A stretch of DNA of 64,000 nt from an uncultured Prevotellaceae bacterium. Lineage in GTDB: Bacteria > Bacteroidota > Bacteroidia > Bacteroidales > Bacteroidaceae. The notes under the pieces were generated by a model. That model was given only the letters and a program-made list of their open reading frames with translations, was not told the origin of the DNA and searched no databases. A program made the translations under genes and the position numbers. Position 1 is the stretch's first letter. Each line of letters opens with the position of its first letter. The stretch spans positions 1 to 64,000 of the forward strand of contig CAMOKH010000109.1 in NCBI GenBank assembly GCA_946617675.1, written 5' to 3'. Below, piece by piece: positions 28,983 through 56,914 of the stretch.

Positions 28983-29329
28983 TCCTGCACTGACCACTGA
29001 CTGTCAGGCACTTACGCCTACTGCCAGCCCGTTTTTCCTGCACTGAAACCTGCACTGTAAAGTTGCACTGAACCATCAAGACGACCGGCCAAATGGAGGC
29101 GGTATTTACCCCGAAAGGTGGCGCTTTTCACCTCGAAAAGCGCCACCTTTCAGGGTGAAAAGCGCCACCTTTCAATTGTTCACCGCCAGTGAATAAAGAT
29201 TCACCAGCCATGAAACGTAGGAACAAGTGCAGGAACAAGTAGCAAGTGCAGGAAGGAGTGCAGGCAGCAGTGCAGGAAACAGGGGGCAAGCGGCCCGCAA
29301 CTGTCTGATAATCAGTGGTCAGTGCAGGA
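28983..29329. repeat. 18-bp perfect inverted repeat bounding a non-coding segment
   Basis: TCCTGCACTGACCACTGA (28983-29000) and its reverse complement TCAGTGGTCAGTGCAGGA (29312-29329). Confidence 0.85.
29091..29214. repeat. phased palindrome array F (6 units)
   Basis: Centres 29099, 29121, 29143, 29165, 29186, 29207; arms AAAT/ATTT, GAAA/TTTC x3, TTCAC/GTGAA, TTCA/TGAA around GGC/GCC cores; units 1-3 of the GAAA type also form a 17-bp inverted/direct repeat. Confidence 0.85.
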
Positions 29330-29386
29330 GTGCAGGAAAAAAATGCTGATAAGGCGTAGGCGGAGCCTGTCGCCTCATCAGCCTGT

Positions 29387-48518: not shown

Positions 48519-48794
48519 TTATTTGTCGTTGTAATGTTCCTCAGCCTGAATAATCAGCACTGAAATACGCTCATCGTAAATGTCGTAAATGATACGGTCG
48601 TTTGCCGTAATATGACGCGAATAGGTTACGTCATTTCCACCGACCAGTGCCTCAGGATGGCCTAGCCCGGTTCGGGGATGCTGCATAATGTCAAACAATA
48701 CCTTTGTTGCCTTCTTGAACAAGCGAGGATTAGACTTCTTCCACTTACGGAGTGTCCTGTCTGCATCTTTGGAATACTCTATGCTGTAGTTCAT
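48519..48794 (-). CDS. yoeB: Txe/YoeB family toxin
   Basis: YSKDADRTLRKWKKSNPRLFKKATKVLFDIMQHPRTGLGHPEALVGGNDVTYSRHITANDRIIYDI..AEEHYNDK; ATGA overlap with upstream antitoxin. Confidence 0.9.
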   Translation of the reverse strand: MNYSIEYSKDADRTLRKWKKSNPRLFKKATKVLFDIMQHPRTGLGHPEALVGGNDVTYSRHITANDRIIYDIYDERISVLIIQAEEHYNDK

Positions 48795-49051
48795 AGACTA
48801 TCGAAGTATTTCTGCATATCCTCAGGAGTATTGCATACAATAGTCTCCCCGCGAGCCGACTCCTCACGTGCTCGCTTGATGTTACGCCGAATGTCAGGAG
48901 TGATGGTACGGTCGTCGCCGATATGAGCCACACGTACAGAGGCAATGCCACGAATAAGCTTCAGAGCCTTTCGGATTTCTGATGCCATAGCATTGTCTTC
49001 CAGCGTCACAATCATCTGGGTTGTTTGCGGGATTTGTGTTGTCACTGCCAT
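48791..49051 (-). CDS. antitoxin of YoeB-type module
   Basis: 86-aa ORF immediately upstream of and overlapping toxin by 4 nt. Confidence 0.8.
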   Translation of the reverse strand: MAVTTQIPQTTQMIVTLEDNAMASEIRKALKLIRGIASVRVAHIGDDRTITPDIRRNIKRAREESARGETIVCNTPEDMQKYFDSL

Positions 49052-49342
49052 AATTATAACCTATTGGATGAAAATATCGCTGCAAATATACGACATTTCC
49101 GGCATATTTCCAAACATTTCCCTGAGAAATCACCCACATAATAGTTAATCACAGGAAACAACCTGCACTTCCGACACTCCCTACACCTGTTGTAATATTT
49201 TAGGTGTAGGAAGTGTCGGAAGTGTAGGATAAAAAGTGCGAATGACAACTATAATAGCAAAATGGCACGAGGAACAGGCCGAAACAGGTACTTCGTACCG
49301 GCTTTCGGAAGGTGGAACCGACACCTGAACCGACACTCTGGC

Positions 49343-49447
49343 AAAAGGCGGCGGGTTACGAACAAAAGGCGGCGGGTTACGAACAAAAGGCGGCGGGTTT
49401 TGGGCAAAAGGCGGCGGGTTTTGGGCAAAAGGCGGCGGGTTTTGGGA
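49343..49447. repeat. 21-bp tandem repeat array D (5 units)
   Basis: AAAAGGCGGCGGGTTACGAAC x2 then AAAAGGCGGCGGGTTTTGGGC x2 and ...GGGA. Confidence 0.95.
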
Positions 49448-49554
49448 CTGATCAGGCACTGAAAAACACAGAAGAACACGGCTGGCCATAAAGGGGGCTC
49501 CGTGTCCTTCCGTGTTTTTCAGTGCCTAAAAATCAGCGGCGCGCGGTCTTTCTT

Positions 49555-52500
49555 TTACTTCGTCAGATACTGAATCAGCAGCGTCAGGTCGACGATATCC
49601 ACCGTGCCGTCGCCGTTCATGTCAGCATCACCGAAGGAGAACGACGAGGGATCGAGGCCGATGACATAGTCGCGCATGGTGGCGATGTCATCTTCGTCGA
49701 TGCAGAGGTCGCCGTTGGCATCGCCGCGAGCTCCGGCAAAGTCATACGTTACATTTCCTACCATCTCATATACGCTCCAACTCTTCTCATTGGCAGCATT
49801 CACCTGCGAAACCGTTATCAGGTTATCCCCAGCAGACTCGTCGGGGGACATAGCCCACATCTGACCACCCTGACTCCTAAGGCTGTTAATAAGCTTTGTC
49901 ATATCCCCGCCTCTAATCCTATTGCCGTAACACTCCAACCGCTCCAAATTATACATGCCAGACAGGTAGAGCTCCGACAGATAGTTGTTGTTACAACTCA
50001 GACCTTCGAGTGCTGTGAAATACCGAATACCCATAAGGCTGCTTATTCCCTTGGAACTCACGTTCATTTCTTTCACGCCGGCTATCTCGTCCGGTGTAAG
50101 GTAACCGTCAGAGCCATAACTCTGTTGCAGTAACCACGAGCGGAAGTTGTCGTCGGGGAAGTTCGTCTCGTTGATGGCGATGGCATCGTAGCCGGGATAT
50201 GGGTTTTCCCCTGACGTCAACACCTGCCAGCCCTTATCTTCCTTGGCAACCTTTACCTGCGCAGCTGATATCCTGTTGCCTTCGGAAGAGTTATTAGCAT
50301 ATACATTTAAACGTCCGTCTGACTTCTTGGGCAGGCTATTGATGAACGAGGTCATATTAGCGTCCTGAATCTTGTTGCCGTAGCACATTATTCTGAATAA
50401 TGCCGTGTTGTTTGTTACGCTGAGCGAAGTCAGCTGGTTGCTGTTGCAATACAGAGATTCGAGTTTCTTGCATTGCGATATGTTCAGGGATTGCAACTTG
50501 TTGCCAAAGCAGATCAGCGTCGTCAGCGATGCTTGCCACGCCAGGTCAAGCGAGGTCAGGTTGTTGCCTGTGCAGGTCAGACTTGTCAGCTCCCAGAAGT
50601 ACTCGATGCCCTTGAGGTTGGAAATGTTCTTGTTACTGACGTTCATCGACGTTACTTGTGCCAGTTCACTCTTCGTGAGCCGCCCGTTCTTGTCGGTATC
50701 GCAGTTGTTGCTGACCCACGTGCGGAAATTCGTGTCGGGGAAGGTGTTGGAATTGATGGCAACCTCAACTCTCAGCTCGACATTCGGGTAGTCCTTAAGA
50801 ATCGTGTTAAAGTACTGATACATGAAATAAAAGCTGGATACGGGCAAAATAAAGTTCCCAGCAAAGGTGCCGTATACGTACCCAGCATTGGTGCCGTAAG
50901 GGAATATGCCACATTTCCTCGTGTTCTTATTGCATTGAAAGCCATAAAGTGAGTTAGCCCAAGGGAAGAAAGTGTAAACATTGTCACTTTCACTGAAGCT
51001 GCCATTCATAAGAGGTTGAACAAAAGCCATCATCTCTGTGAGTATCTGTAAGTCGAGAGCGCTGAGCGTTGCGCCGTCATAGACGGTGATGACGTACGCG
51101 TCGGGATGGGAGTCGGAATGCGACACCCAATCCTGTTTACTCGAATCCCAAATCTGGACATCAAAGTTTTTTCCGGTGGCCGTCTGCACCTGAGCAGTGG
51201 TTATCTGGTTGCCCGTCGACGCCTCATTCTTCTTGACGCGCAAGCGACCTACAGTTTCACTCGTGGGCAGGCTGTTGACGAATGTCGTCATGTTCGAGCC
51301 GCTGAGTTTGTTACCAAAGCAATAGACTTCAACATAAGACAGTTTTGTGCTGCCGCCTTGCATCTTTAAGGAAGAAAGCTGGTTGTTTTCACAATACAGG
51401 AGAGCCAGATTCGTACAGGTCGACAGGTCGAGCGAAGTCAGCTTGTTGCCCGAGCACAGCAGTGTCTGCAGGTTCTTCAGCCCCGACACATTGAGAGAGT
51501 TCAGCTGGTTGTTTTGGCAGCGCAGTTCCGTCAGCGACTTATTGCTCCTCAGGTCAAGCGAAGTCAAGCTATTGCCATCGCATACCAATTTTCTCAGCGA
51601 CGTGAAGTATTCAATGCCTTTCAGACTGGAGATATTTTTGCTGGAAACGCCAATTGTCGTCACATTTGCTATCTCACTCTGGTCGAGCATTCCGTTCTTG
51701 TCGGTGTCGCAGCTGTTGCTAACGTAGTTGCGGAAGTTCCCGTCAGGGAAGTTGTTCGAGTTGATGCTGCAGACGAAATCGTAGCCGAAATAATAATTAT
51801 CATTAACATACATTGGTATCCAACCCTTCTTCTTGGCATTGCCCACCTGACGGCAGGTCATCGAGTTTTGGTCAGTGTTGTCTGCTTTGACATAAAGAAT
51901 TCTATTCGTGACGGTGGGCAGGCTGCTGATGAGCACATCCATGTTGCTGCCGCTGATCTTGTTGCCAGAGCAATCGATAGCTATCAACTTTGTATTCTTC
52001 GACAGGTCGAGCGAGGTTAAGCCGGTATTGGAACAGGACAATACCTCAAGATTGGTGAAGAAACCAATGCCCCTCAAGTCAGAGATAATCCAATTGTTGA
52101 CATCAATGCTCGTGACTTTATTGATATCTACTTTGGAAAGTCTGGCAATAGGTTCTCCAGAATCAACATCCGTTCTACAAATATTATAAAGAACATAGTA
52201 GCGGAAATTATCGTCTGGAAAGGTCTTTTCGTTCACTGTCTGCTCGATATCAAATGAAAAGGCATCGTATTTCCCTAAATCCGAGTCCACTTTTTTCAAA
52301 GCTTCCTTGGATTCTTTGCTAAGCCGCACAGCAAGTCCATAGGGTTGAACGTTGGCAGGCACACTAATTGTTTTAGCCTTTGTATCAATGCTGAACAGCG
52401 TATTGCCGTTCAGGTTCTTAAAAGTCAGAACATTTGACGATGTAGTTTCAAGGACCAATTTCCCCTCCACATTGGCAACGACCTGAAACATAGCCAAATA

Positions 52501-52626
52501 CTGATTAAACAATGACTTAAACTTATATCCGTCATAGATTGTTACAGGCGGGTAGACAGTTTGAGCCTGCGCCCCCGAAACCAAGGCGAGGAGCGCGATA
52601 ACGATTAATAATAATCTTTTCTTCAT
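49555..52626 (-). CDS. secreted LRR protein with EF-hand-like modules and C-terminal dockerin-like domain (LRR1)
   Basis: Signal peptide; repeats like LTSLDLSKNTKLIAIDCSGNKISG; NFRNYVSNSCDTDKNGMLDQSEIANVTTIGVS; C-term GDANGDLCIDEDDIATMRDYVIG..DMNGDGTVDIVDLTLLIQYL. Confidence 0.92.
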   Translation of the reverse strand: MKKRLLLIVIALLALVSGAQAQTVYPPVTIYDGYKFKSLFNQYLAMFQVVANVEGKLVLETTSSNVLTFKNLNGNTLFSIDTKAKTISVPANVQPYGLAVRLSKESKEALKKVDSDLGKYDAFSFDIEQTVNEKTFPDDNFRYYVLYNICRTDVDSGEPIARLSKVDINKVTSIDVNNWIISDLRGIGFFTNLEVLSCSNTGLTSLDLSKNTKLIAIDCSGNKISGSNMDVLISSLPTVTNRILYVKADNTDQNSMTCRQVGNAKKKGWIPMYVNDNYYFGYDFVCSINSNNFPDGNFRNYVSNSCDTDKNGMLDQSEIANVTTIGVSSKNISSLKGIEYFTSLRKLVCDGNSLTSLDLRSNKSLTELRCQNNQLNSLNVSGLKNLQTLLCSGNKLTSLDLSTCTNLALLYCENNQLSSLKMQGGSTKLSYVEVYCFGNKLSGSNMTTFVNSLPTSETVGRLRVKKNEASTGNQITTAQVQTATGKNFDVQIWDSSKQDWVSHSDSHPDAYVITVYDGATLSALDLQILTEMMAFVQPLMNGSFSESDNVYTFFPWANSLYGFQCNKNTRKCGIFPYGTNAGYVYGTFAGNFILPVSSFYFMYQYFNTILKDYPNVELRVEVAINSNTFPDTNFRTWVSNNCDTDKNGRLTKSELAQVTSMNVSNKNISNLKGIEYFWELTSLTCTGNNLTSLDLAWQASLTTLICFGNKLQSLNISQCKKLESLYCNSNQLTSLSVTNNTALFRIMCYGNKIQDANMTSFINSLPKKSDGRLNVYANNSSEGNRISAAQVKVAKEDKGWQVLTSGENPYPGYDAIAINETNFPDDNFRSWLLQQSYGSDGYLTPDEIAGVKEMNVSSKGISSLMGIRYFTALEGLSCNNNYLSELYLSGMYNLERLECYGNRIRGGDMTKLINSLRSQGGQMWAMSPDESAGDNLITVSQVNAANEKSWSVYEMVGNVTYDFAGARGDANGDLCIDEDDIATMRDYVIGLDPSSFSFGDADMNGDGTVDIVDLTLLIQYLTK

Positions 52627-52667
52627 AATTCTATAGTTTTTAGTTTATCGTTTATCTTCGTTTTGTC

Positions 52668-52853
52668 AACTGGGTGAGTTAGCGTTGTTAACTGGGCTTG
52701 TTAGTCGTGCTAACTCGGCGGGTCAGCAGCCTTTACCCGGCAGTAAACTCGCTCGAACCCGGCAGCAAACTGCCACGTACCCGGCGGGTAACTGGTGCGA
52801 GGCGGCGCCTCGTTGTCATGAAGCGGCGCCTCGTGATTCTGAAGCGGCGCCTC
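52668..52853. repeat. phased palindrome array C (9 units)
   Basis: Approximate centres 52674, 52696, 52718, 52739.5, 52761.5, 52784, 52805, 52826, 52847; perfect units include TACCCGGCGGGTA and CGAGGCGGCGCCTCG. Confidence 0.85.
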
Positions 52854-52924
52854 GTTGCGAAATGGTGCAGACCTCCCGTCTGCGGCCCGAAGTGCCGATG
52901 CACAGGGACTTTCGCACTTCGCAG

Positions 52925-52984
52925 ACCTCCCGTCACACCTCCCGTCACACCTCCCCTCTGACCTCCCTTCTTACCTTCTCTGGG
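52925..52984. repeat. 12-bp tandem repeat (about 5 units)
   Basis: ACCTCCCGTCAC ACCTCCCGTCAC ACCTCCCCTCTG ACCTCCCTTCTT ACCTTCTCTGGG. Confidence 0.8.
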
Positions 52985-53123
52985 GGACGTTCAACGGGAC
53001 CTTGACGGGAGGTGTCGGCGAGTGACCTCCCGTCCTCAAACCCCTATTCACACTGGGGTTTCGGATGAGAACGGGAGGTTGGGAGGTTTTTTTTGCTTTT
53101 ACTCTCCTATTTTATTACTTATT

Positions 53124-53350
53124 CACCTTATTTAATGATAATTGCTGCAAAGATACAAAAAAATGTGAATATTACCCCACCTAAATAGTTAATAATTATT
53201 AATCATGTACAATTATTCTGCTTTCTGCCGCGCGGCGGTCAGTGGGGTCGCCTCACTGACGCCAAGCGCCGCCTAACGTTCGTCAGGCGGCGCTTGATAT
53301 GCACAACTCACGTCCGGAATGAATCCGGCATAGCTTTTTACCTTTTCACT
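53124..53350. repeat. intergenic duplication, copy 1 (upstream of LRR1)
   Basis: Matches 56664-56905: same promoter box, AATAATTATTAATCA, GCCGCGCGGCG, AAGCGCCGCCT..AGGCGGCGCTT hairpin, CCGGAATGAATCCGG. Confidence 0.9.
53148..53155 (-). promoter_or_regulatory. -7 box TATCTTTG for LRR1
   Basis: GCTGCAAAGATACAAAA, identical context to LRR2 promoter at 56689-56696. Confidence 0.6.
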
Positions 53351-53422
53351 TTTTTACCTTTTCACTTTTTTACCTTTTCACTTTTTTACCTTTTTACTTT
53401 TTTACCTTTTTACCTTTTTAAG
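53335..53422. repeat. octamer array (TTTTTACC/TTTTCACT) running into LRR2 3' end
   Basis: 11 contiguous 8-mers; LRR2 stop codon (53402-53404) lies inside the array. Confidence 0.9.
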
Positions 53423-56400
53423 TTTTTCTATCAGTAGCGTCAGGTCGGTGATGTCGACCGTGCCGTTGTCGTCAAGGTCGGCCGACTTCAGTGAGAACGC
53501 ACTGGAGTTGCGTCCGAGGATGTAGTCGCTCAGTCGCTCCACGTCCTGCGTGCCGACCTCGCCGTTGCCGTCGGCATCGCCTTCGACGATGACACCGAGG
53601 TAGTCAGAGCCGTCTTCCCTCAGCACGCGCCACCCCTTCTGGTTGGCAGTATATACCTGAGCCGGCGTCATTGTGTTGAAGTCACGTCCCTCGCCGTAGA
53701 AGTAGTACAGTTTACCGTCGGTCGTCACGGGCAGGAGGCTGACAAACGAGCCGTCAATATTGTTGATCCAGCATTTCAGCTCGTTCAGCGACGTGAAGTA
53801 TTCTATGCCCTCGAGGCTCTTGATGCCACGGCTGACCAAATATGTATCGAACGATTTGGTGTGTTGTATCTCCACCTGGTTGAGGTATCCGTCCAAGTCG
53901 CCGTCGAAGCCCCTGATAATCATGGAGCGGAACGCATCGTCGGGGAAGTTTCTCTGGATGATGGGTACACCCTGGTCGATACCAGCATAGTCAGCGCCGT
54001 CGCGCGTGAGCACCCTCCAGCCCTTGGCTTTGAGAGCGTCCACCTGGGCGGTGGTGAAGCCGTTGCCCTCCGTTGCGCTCGTTGAGAACAGCCTGATGAC
54101 GCCGCCGTTGTCCGACAGGTCCCGAAGCAGGTAAACGATGGCGTATCCCCATATCTCGTTGTTGTCTATCCACAGTTCGCTGAGTTGCTGGTTATTGTCT
54201 AACCAGAGGTAGCTGATATTGTTGTTGCTTGAGACGAGCTTCTTGAGTGCCGTGAAATACTGGATGCCGTCGAGTTGTTCGATGCCCAGCCCCGACAGGT
54301 CCATCTCTGTCACCGCGTCAAGCTCGTCCTCGGTGAGCACACCGTCGGCCCCGTAGTTCTGAGCCAGCACCCACGAGCGGAAGTTCGGGTCGGTGAAGGT
54401 GTCCTCGTCGATTTCGACGTAGAAGGGAACGCCGGGGTAGTCCACCCACTCGGTGCCGTCATACATCTGGACCGTCCATCCATTGTCCTTAGCGGCCTCG
54501 ACATGTCTGGTCATCATCTCGTTGTCATCGTCTATACCTTCAAAGTAAACGGCCATCCATCCCGGATCTTCCTGACTGGTGTCAATGGTCCGCAGACAAT
54601 CTACCAGATAGGTCATGCCGTCTCCGCGAATCTGGTTTTTATAGCACTCCAGTCTTTTCAGCGCCCTGCAGTCCGACAGACCATTAAGATACTCCAGCTG
54701 GTTGTCGTAGCACGACAGTTCTGTCAGTGCCGAGCAGCCCGACACGTCAAGCTCGGTCAGCTGGTTGCTGAAACATTCCAGTGCCATCAGCGTATTGCAG
54801 TATGACACGTCGAGGGAGGTCAGCTGGTTGTCGTAGCAATTCAGTCTTATCAGCGACGTATAGCCCTTCACGTCGAGGGTGGTCAGCCGGTTGTTGTTGC
54901 AATCCAGTACTTTCAGCTCCGTGCAGCCCGACACGTTAAGCTCGGTCAGCTGGTTGTAGCGGCATTCCAGATCTGTCAGCGACGTGCAGCCCGACACGTC
55001 GAGGGTGGTCAGCTGGTTGCCGTAGCAAGTCAGTATTTTCATCGACGTAAAGTGCTCAATTCCTTTGAGGTTGACGATGCCCTTGTTGCTGACGTCGATG
55101 GTCGTCACCGCCGCAATCTCTTTGGGGGAGAGGTATCCGTCCCCGTCCTTGTCAACAGCCACACTGCTGACGTACGAGCGGAAGTTGCCGTCCGGGAAGT
55201 TCGTTTGGTCGATGGCAATGCCAGGAACTATGCCGGGGAAGTCTTTGTCACTACTTGTCAGCACACGCCAGTTCTTGGCCTTTGCAGCCTCCACCTGCAC
55301 AATAGTTATCTGGTTGTCATCGGTGCCATCTGGATTGTAAACTTTAAAGGTGCCGATGCCGTTCGTCACTGTTGGCAGGCTGTTTATGAGTGAGGTCATT
55401 ACTAAACCACGAATCTGATTGTTGTAGCAAATCAGTTCTGTAAGCGCCGTGTTATTCGACACGACAAGGGAGGTCAGCCGGTTTTTGTAGCATTGCAGAT
55501 ATTTCAGCGCCGCCTTATTCGACACATCAAGCGAAATCAGCTGGTTGTTGTAGCAAATCAGCAACACCAGCGCCGTATTATTCGATAAGTCAAGAGAATT
55601 CAACTGGTTGTTCTGGCAATACAGGAATCCCAACTCCGTAGAATTCGATAAATCAAGAGAAGTCAACTGGTTGTTCTGGCACTGCAGCAATATCAGCCCC
55701 GTGTTATTAGATAAGTCAAGAGAAGTCAACTGGTTGTTCTCGCAACGCAGTTGTGACAGCGCCGTAAAGTGTTCTATTCCTTTGAGGTCAGTGATGCCCA
55801 TGTCGTTGACATAGATGTGCCCGCTCGTCTCAATCTCCTCGAAACCAAGAAAACCGTCGCTGTCGGTGTCGCAGTTGCTCCGGACCCACGACCTGAAGTT
55901 TTCATCGGGGAAGTTGTCCTGGTTGATGGGAACACCTACGAAACCGCTGAAATCGTGCGTGCCGCCGTAGGGGGAATATGAAACAACCCGCCAGTTCTTG
56001 GCCTTGGCGATATCCACCTGCGCGGCGGTGATGATGTTCTGGTCGTTATCCCGGTCGAGCACAGTGAACAGCCCGAGGGGCAACTCGGTTGTCGGCTGGC
56101 ACAGCGGCAGGCTCTCCACGAGCTTCTTCATCTCGGCGTAACCAATTTGGTTGTTCGAGCAGTCAAGGTATGCCAGCTTCGGGTTGTTCGCGACATTGAG
56201 CGCGGTCAGCTGGTTGCCGGGACAGAACAGCATTCTCAGCACGGTGTTCTTCGAGACGTCAATCGAGGTCAGCTGGTTAGAGCCGCAATCCAGCCTTTCA
56301 AGCTTGGTGTTATGCGAGACGTCGATCGAGGTCAGACTGTTGCCGAAGACGTCAAGTTCCTTCAGCTCGGTGAAGTACTCAATGCCCGTGAGGTCTTCAA

Positions 56401-56608
56401 TATTCAAGTCAACGGCATTAATCTCCGTTATCTGGGCTATCTCGCTGTCGGTGAGCACCCCGTCAATGAGGTCGGGCTGGCAGTAGTCCTTCACATAAGA
56501 GCGGAAGTGCCAATCAGGGAAGTGATTTTCGTCGATGGTAACGTCGGCCAATGCCCCAGAAACCATGCCGAGGAGCACTATAATGATTGATAAAAGTCTT
56601 TTCTTCAT
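53402..56608 (-). CDS. secreted LRR protein with EF-hand-like modules and C-terminal dockerin-like domain (LRR2, paralogue of LRR1)
   Basis: Signal peptide; NNTGLILLQCQNNQLTSLDLSNSTELGFLYCQNNQLNSLDLS; NFRSWVRSNCDTDSDGFLGFEEI; C-term GDADGNGEVGTQDVERLSDYILG..DLDDNGTVDITDLTLLIEKL. Confidence 0.92.
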   Translation of the reverse strand: MKKRLLSIIIVLLGMVSGALADVTIDENHFPDWHFRSYVKDYCQPDLIDGVLTDSEIAQITEINAVDLNIEDLTGIEYFTELKELDVFGNSLTSIDVSHNTKLERLDCGSNQLTSIDVSKNTVLRMLFCPGNQLTALNVANNPKLAYLDCSNNQIGYAEMKKLVESLPLCQPTTELPLGLFTVLDRDNDQNIITAAQVDIAKAKNWRVVSYSPYGGTHDFSGFVGVPINQDNFPDENFRSWVRSNCDTDSDGFLGFEEIETSGHIYVNDMGITDLKGIEHFTALSQLRCENNQLTSLDLSNNTGLILLQCQNNQLTSLDLSNSTELGFLYCQNNQLNSLDLSNNTALVLLICYNNQLISLDVSNKAALKYLQCYKNRLTSLVVSNNTALTELICYNNQIRGLVMTSLINSLPTVTNGIGTFKVYNPDGTDDNQITIVQVEAAKAKNWRVLTSSDKDFPGIVPGIAIDQTNFPDGNFRSYVSSVAVDKDGDGYLSPKEIAAVTTIDVSNKGIVNLKGIEHFTSMKILTCYGNQLTTLDVSGCTSLTDLECRYNQLTELNVSGCTELKVLDCNNNRLTTLDVKGYTSLIRLNCYDNQLTSLDVSYCNTLMALECFSNQLTELDVSGCSALTELSCYDNQLEYLNGLSDCRALKRLECYKNQIRGDGMTYLVDCLRTIDTSQEDPGWMAVYFEGIDDDNEMMTRHVEAAKDNGWTVQMYDGTEWVDYPGVPFYVEIDEDTFTDPNFRSWVLAQNYGADGVLTEDELDAVTEMDLSGLGIEQLDGIQYFTALKKLVSSNNNISYLWLDNNQQLSELWIDNNEIWGYAIVYLLRDLSDNGGVIRLFSTSATEGNGFTTAQVDALKAKGWRVLTRDGADYAGIDQGVPIIQRNFPDDAFRSMIIRGFDGDLDGYLNQVEIQHTKSFDTYLVSRGIKSLEGIEYFTSLNELKCWINNIDGSFVSLLPVTTDGKLYYFYGEGRDFNTMTPAQVYTANQKGWRVLREDGSDYLGVIVEGDADGNGEVGTQDVERLSDYILGRNSSAFSLKSADLDDNGTVDITDLTLLIEKLKKVKR

Positions 56609-56663
56609 AAGCTATATTGGTTTTATTGGTTTTTAGTTAATTGGTTCTTTAACTCTTTTACCT

Positions 56664-56905
56664 TCACCTTATTTAATAATAATTGCTGCAAAGATACAAA
56701 AAAAATGTGAATCCCCCCCCTCAAACTGTTAATAATTATTAATCACGTGCAATTATTCTGTTTTCTGCCGCGCGGCGATTGGTAGGTCGCCGTTGCTAAT
56801 GTCAGGTGCCGCCTCACTGACGCCAAGCGCCGCCTCACTTTCGTCAGGCGGCGCTTGATATGCATAACACACGTCCGGAATGAATCCGGCATAGCTTTTT
56901 ACCTT
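56664..56905. repeat. intergenic duplication, copy 2 (upstream of LRR2)
   Basis: See copy 1. Confidence 0.9.
56689..56696 (-). promoter_or_regulatory. -7 box TATCTTTG for LRR2
   Basis: GCTGCAAAGATACAAAA. Confidence 0.62.
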
Positions 56906-56914
56906 TTCACCCTT

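Follow-up and report, generated by a model that had tools for sequence, protein, structure and literature searches.

Organization of the LRR1/LRR2 locus

The window (the whole stretch of 64,000 nucleotides that was analysed) corresponds to contig C109 of a genome (G000) from a large Bacteroidales genus. The assembly comprises 2.14 Mb in 117 contigs and is 56% complete, and the relatives matched by sequence carry the name Prevotella. The genomes compared most closely are metagenome-assembled genomes (MAGs), in which genes were called by a simple home-made script based on codon usage. The features of the locus are as follows.

49127..49446, plus strand: second composite repeat, E1, consisting of a long hairpin and a 21-bp phased array (array B, 49340-49446)
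49555..52626, minus strand: LRR1, a leucine-rich-repeat protein with a dockerin domain
52644..53121 (approximate), unstranded: extra block of the LRR1 leader, comprising array C and the module, that the LRR2 leader lacks
52663..52854, unstranded: array C, nine phased palindromic or semi-palindromic units at a spacing of 21-22.5 bp
52867..53095, unstranded: ACCTCCCGTC / GACGGGAGGT inverted tandem-repeat module adjoining array C, a gene-less relative of a VapE-bearing element
53146..53156, minus strand: -7 region of the predicted LRR1 promoter, GTATCTTTGCA (TAnnTTTG type)
53402..56608, minus strand: LRR2, tandem LRR paralog with a dockerin domain, with the same promoter as LRR1 and a leader without the array

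The promoter regions of LRR1 and LRR2 are near-identical, including the GTATCTTTGCA sequence, which agrees with the commonest intergenic 11-mers of this genome. The LRR2 leader is about 70-80 bp long, and the LRR1 leader exceeds it by ~440 bp that consist of the ACCTCCCGTC module and array C. An earlier note on this DNA had placed the array between the predicted LRR1 promoter and the ATG, and the comparison of the two paralogs bears this position out. The difference between the leaders may reflect an insertion in LRR1; alternatively, it could be a deletion in LRR2. Prevotella sp. RGIG1522 (G445) lacks the entire LRR1-LRR2 island (window 49442-56912), and the junction falls at the end of array B. 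When array C and its flanks were compared with 150 genomes of the same genus, the matches were mostly to T-rich repeat, and the LRR1 coding part had no match outside this genome among the matches listed.

Other repeats are found at the locus and in the rest of the genome. A T-rich array of 8/16-bp units (CTTTTTAC/CTTTTCAC) lies downstream of LRR2 (window 53334-53420), and many genomes of the genus contain similar sequence. Tandem arrays of heptamers and of 12-mers are common in this genome. Adjoining E1 is a gene for a YoeB-like toxin with an overlapping small ORF upstream of it, likely a toxin-antitoxin pair (window 48519-49051).

Nine palindromes phased at two helical turns

Array C consists of the following units, all unstranded.

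52668..52680: unit 1, AACTgggtgAGTT, centre 52674
52689..52703: unit 2, TAACtgggcttGTTA, centre 52696
52709..52727: unit 3, GCTaACtCGGCGgGTcAGC, centre 52718
52732..52747: unit 4, TTTACcCGGCaGTAAA, centre 52739.5
52756..52768: unit 5, core only (ACCCGGCAGCAAA region), centre 52762
52778..52790: unit 6, TACCCGGCGGGTA, centre 52784
52798..52812: unit 7, CGAGGCGGCGCCTCG, centre 52805
52820..52832: unit 8, GAAGCGGCGCCTC, centre 52826
52841..52853: unit 9, GAAGCGGCGCCTC, centre 52847

The regularity of the array was assessed by dynamic programming over palindromes with an allowed spacing of 20.5-22.5 bp. The nine-centre chain scored 16.0, whereas dinucleotide shuffles of the same 216 bp gave a mean of 4.05 (sd 1.5, maximum 11.5) and none of 300 reached 16.0. 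Spacing windows that left out 21-22 bp gave a top chain score of 10.5. The palindromes are frequently imperfect, and tests of palindrome distance without the chain restriction gave only weak signals. Tandem Repeats Finder (TRF) resolved the array into three short families with periods of 22, 22, and 21 instead of a single repeat.

These results agree with most of what the earlier note had read from the letters. All of the palindromic units that it quoted are found in the sequence, and its count of nine units at ~21-22.5 bp is upheld by the chain score. The unit that it described as core only, near 52761, indeed retains little beyond the core at centre 52762. Its view that the units are not tandem copies of one sequence made by simple slippage is matched by the three TRF families. 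The extent that it gave (52668-52853) requires a small correction in that the array stands but its true start lies a few bases ahead of 52668. Helical phasing, which it also proposed, follows from the significance of the chain together with a genome-wide peak at 21-22 bp described below.

A class of phased arrays in this genome and its relatives

A sequence-blind scan counted four consecutive palindromes at one spacing, for spacings from 14 to 35 bp, in natural and in shuffled DNA. In 542 kb sampled from the window's own genome, there were 5 matches at 21 bp and 3 at 22 bp, other spacings gave 0-2, and shuffled DNA gave 0 at 21-22 bp. Likewise, 181 kb of loci from the genus gave 1, 3, and 1 matches at 21, 22, and 23 bp, respectively, against 0 after shuffling, with a weaker second rise at 33-35 bp. 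Because a peak appears at 21-22 bp in the own genome and at 21-23 bp in the genus, with nearly nothing after shuffling, array C is a member of a class and not a one-off.

Searches by pattern converge on the same picture. Paired CCCGNCGGG cores, searched as CCCGNCGGGN{11,14}CCCGNCGGG, matched 10 times in this genome and 0 times in the reversed control. The same paired cores matched 86 times against 0 for the control in RUG14560 (92% complete), which comes from the rumen and belongs to a different genus of Bacteroidales. With one mismatch allowed, AACCCGNCGGGTT had 22 matches in this genome and its reversed control 3. The nearest array to array C, at C80:12820, repeats, at 22-bp intervals, the two unit types found in the 3' half of array C. 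A further array of the class lies in the window itself.

2496-2591: 22-bp array with unit GTTTGGAGGCGCCATCCG, same class as array C

The earlier note had proposed a distinct repeat class, and had set beforehand as grounds against it equally long phased runs in shuffled sequence or a lack of such arrays elsewhere. Shuffling left no comparable runs at 21-23 bp, and similar arrays occur in this genome and in relatives, so the class survives through both the sequence-blind peak and the pattern matches. Phased palindrome arrays like these were not described anywhere in the literature searched, which lay largely outside subscription journals.

Several further chains deserve mention. The window begins with a chain of GTTCCCACGGCCTGGGACAAACGTCCCACGCCGTGGGAC... 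(1-90) whose family is dispersed over several other loci of this genome. At window 29000-29330, a phased palindrome chain (AAAGGTGGCGCTTTTC...GAAAAGCGCCACCTTTC) lies between inverted tandem repeats of the CCTGCACTG type, a layout like that of the composite elements described below. In a Tannerella MAG (L136:3200-3590), a stretch between two genes was read by eye as ~17 phased 22-bp units whose palindromes vary.

Unit anatomy and turnover

The form arm-CGSCG-arm' recurs in many units of this genome and of RGIG1522, with arms drawn from a small repertoire (TCTACC, TCAACC, GCTACC, AAAAGG, AAAACC, GCGAGG, GTTTGG, and GAATAG). In this genome, arms of the same unit agreed at 3.71 of 6 positions compared to 3.33 of 6 for reshuffles within arrays (p 0.002); the same test in RGIG1522 did not reach significance (p 0.06). 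At a site common to both genomes (L133 vs L013), the arrays differ and contain hybrid units such as GTTACCCGGCACCAAAC and GAATAGCGCCGCCAAAC. Furthermore, units of array B differ between this genome and RGIG1522 at core and spacer positions, whereas the adjoining element is identical over long stretches. The hybrid units at the shared site and the differences in array B indicate that units and half-units are exchanged faster than their surroundings change.

Can turnover alone account for the arrays? The main rival explanation is that they are neutral minisatellites without function, in which slippage makes the units and template switching at quasi-palindromes makes the symmetry. The exchange of half-units and the variation of units between sister genomes agree with it, as do the modest arm symmetry within arrays and the heptamer and 12-mer tandem arrays common in the same genome. 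However, slippage alone leaves unexplained why unrelated units keep a 21-23 bp spacing across many species, and why the element of RUG14560, described below, has a fixed three-unit form with free spacers. We regard a neutral origin as unlikely, if the strongest of the alternatives.

A dispersed module and its vapE-bearing relative

The module that adjoins array C has homologues at several places in RGIG1522 and in G067 of the same genus (E 1e-36 to 1e-14). Most copies elsewhere are flanked, on one side or both, by arrays phased at 22 bp whose unit sequences are different, such as GTTTAGTCCGACTAAAC and GCTAAATGGGTCAGTTAGC. In a three-palindrome chain test, the left-hand array was significant against shuffles in the window, in L279, L280, L286, and L287, and in the vapE-bearing L319; copies L281, L282, and L285 had no significant left-hand array in this test. 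At L288, the module lies directly 3' of a VapE-like gene (PF05272, E 4e-35; DUF3874 PF12990, 5e-7), which is a primase-helicase gene of the BT4734 type. The gene-less copies L286 and L287 retain, as recognized by eye, the end of an L288-type VapE-like gene ahead of the module. In L319, the order is array, short tandem repeats, vapE gene, inverted repeats, and conserved hairpin. Inverted tandem repeats flank both the module and a vapE-bearing relative; the ends of the element are approximate, and the junctions are strongly diverged. By sequence homology, the association with VapE is established for the module adjoining array C.

The composite repeat E1 shows a similar combination. It is present in about 30 copies in RGIG1522, and one site that holds an E1 composite with a 21-bp array in RGIG1522 has none here (L247 vs L064). 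One RGIG1522 copy lies directly upstream of a vapE gene, and a 21-bp array runs in frame inside that gene (L312). This in-frame phased array (L312:798-878) would encode heptapeptide repeats of the KAPGFAK type.

The full-length VapE proteins contain BT4734-like_N, VapE-like, and usually DUF3874 domains, and several of their genes are followed by an HU-HIG gene. Near the vapE genes of seven genomes, phased four-palindrome cassettes passed the threshold at 9 of 30 loci compared to 3 of 124 control stretches. Such a cassette consists of two identical outer palindromes (GTAAAACAAGTTGTTTTAC or GAATTCTCGAGAGAATTC) ~66 bp apart with two GC-core palindromes between them. A genus-wide repeat of the test in 30 genus members, which covered mainly the 3' side, gave no enrichment, with 3 of 30 DUF3874 loci against 3 of 29 control loci that were themselves repeat-rich. 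In RUG14560, which has the most arrays of all the genomes, no P0001-like VapE was found. Because the genus-wide test did not replicate the association and RUG14560 is rich in arrays without such a VapE, VapE cannot account for the whole class. HU-HIG-like genes occur in all five genomes tested, with 23 matches in RUG14560; the family profile also picks up ordinary HU proteins.

Does the array act as DNA or as RNA?

The earlier note had offered, as one of two ideas, that array C, as part of the LRR1 leader transcript, folds into a row of small hairpins; a regulatory RNA of this kind would control LRR1. The place of the array between promoter and ATG and the fold z-scores of -2.6 and -2.9 speak for it. 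However, the folds are alike on both strands, and the minimum-energy structures are long-range and do not form a chain of small hairpins. Rfam gave no family match anywhere in the window.

RUG14560 offers a broader test of the RNA idea. Its genome carries at least 23 stereotyped copies of an element with three ACCCGWCGGGT palindromes at exactly 23 bp and free spacers (records L118-L197). The spacers are mainly CGRYRNRYCG and largely alternate between purine and pyrimidine, and the outer arms are partly complementary. The spacer pairs did not covary, with one position pairing worse than chance; in the outer arms, a few positions lean toward compensation. Of the elements, 14 fall in tandem, 5 in divergent, and 6 in convergent regions, close to the baseline counts of 54, 19, and 15, a distribution that fits neither terminators nor leader RNA. 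The conserved, strand-specific, and position-specific pairing of a structured leader RNA is thus not what these arrays display. As convergent, tandem, and divergent regions are used alike at about baseline rates, any action of the arrays would be at the level of DNA, not through leader RNA. The hairpin chain of the earlier note did not hold up, and a regulatory RNA is in our view very improbable.

The arrays could instead be operators for a transcription factor specific to LRR-type genes. Same-face spacing and the position upstream of a gene are what such operators would show, yet LRR2 has the same promoter without the array, and convergent regions, too, hold several arrays of the class; it would be quite surprising if this explanation were correct.

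Comparison with known repeat elements

In layout, the nearest described element is BrickBuilt, a MITE/minisatellite of Porphyromonas gingivalis made of 23-nt tandem units with leader and tail modules in intergenic regions (PMC4596501). Its 19 copies are dispersed, the number of units differs between strains, and its inverted ends match insertion sequences of the IS5 family (PMC4596501). Like the present arrays, it belongs to the Bacteroidales and combines tandem units with a dispersed, intergenic distribution. The BrickBuilt unit, however, is near-constant (AGAYCATARTATCCTCTCRTRTG), whereas the arms here vary within and between arrays, and its ends are IS5-like, whereas the gene-bearing relative here has vapE. 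Compared with MITEs of the BrickBuilt type, the module and the E1 composites are likewise dispersed, intergenic, gene-less, and multi-copy. Presence and absence at identical sites is seen for E1, and for the array C block the comparison is between the paralogs LRR1 and LRR2 only. The near-constant tandem unit is lacking here since the arms vary.

PINSR, a 188-bp repeat of Prevotella intermedia, is lineage-specific, intergenic, and high in copy number, and was described without terminal inverted repeats (PMC4755523). Compared by description only, it is likewise a lineage-specific intergenic repeat of Prevotella. CRISPR arrays share with array C a regular array and a palindromic core, but they have invariant repeats and unique spacers of ~30 bp, whereas the units of array C vary and its spacers are ~10 bp.

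Iterons of plasmids are short, near-identical direct repeats that lie about two helical turns apart near the gene of a replication-type protein. Array C has the same phasing of about two turns, and the nearness to a replication-type gene is also alike. VapE and HU-HIG genes, whose products are candidate binders, adjoin some arrays. The difference is that iterons are near-identical direct repeats, whereas the units here are palindromic, variable, and chromosomal.

Least probable of the alternatives is that the arrays are REP/BIME elements spread by a RAYT-type Y1 transposase: they too are small, multi-copy intergenic palindromes in composites, and Y1 transposase genes are present in some genomes, but none was found in the own genome (56% complete), in G448, or in RUG14560 (92% complete, 86 pattern matches), and the units vary far more than those of REPs and keep a regular 21-23 bp phasing without a RAYT link. 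REP/RAYT membership was rejected because array-rich RUG14560 yielded no Y1 transposase.

A model for array C and its significance

The reading that we favour, and which we consider about evenly poised between right and wrong, is that array C belongs to the genome-wide and genus-wide class of phased intergenic arrays and flanks a copy, now without its gene, of an element with a VapE-bearing relative, and that its units would be bound by protein dimers on the same face of the DNA. Such a same-face array for a dimeric protein was the other idea of the earlier note, and it is the better of the two. Each palindrome would take one dimer in an iteron-like manner, so that several dimers align. Candidate binders are the VapE/DUF3874 protein of the element or the HU-like HU-HIG protein encoded beside many vapE genes, and the array might serve the element in replication, mobilisation, or compaction. 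At LRR1, array C would be a passenger that lengthens the leader, in a copy seated between promoter and ATG. The array would belong to a mobile or once-mobile composite element and evolve as units are exchanged, with phase and symmetry kept under constraint. In other words, units may expand, contract, and swap half-arms while the sequence drifts and the phase (21-23 bp, two helical turns) and symmetry stay.

A wider reading, which seems possible and which we hold only tentatively, is that the arrays represent an undescribed class of chromosomal cis-elements in the Bacteroidales that retain two-turn phasing and dyad symmetry as their sequence turns over. They would be bound by the VapE/DUF3874 or HU-HIG proteins of small chromosomal primase-helicase elements, would have spread with these elements, and would persist as gene-less relics, such as array C, in gene leaders. 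Standard searches by motif or homology miss sites in which spacing and symmetry are conserved in place of sequence. Should some protein recognise these arrays, bacteria that abound in the gut and rumen would possess an extensive and so far unrecognised layer of DNA organisation or mobile-element biology, and it would become possible to test what the widespread, uncharacterised VapE/HU-HIG gene pairs do.
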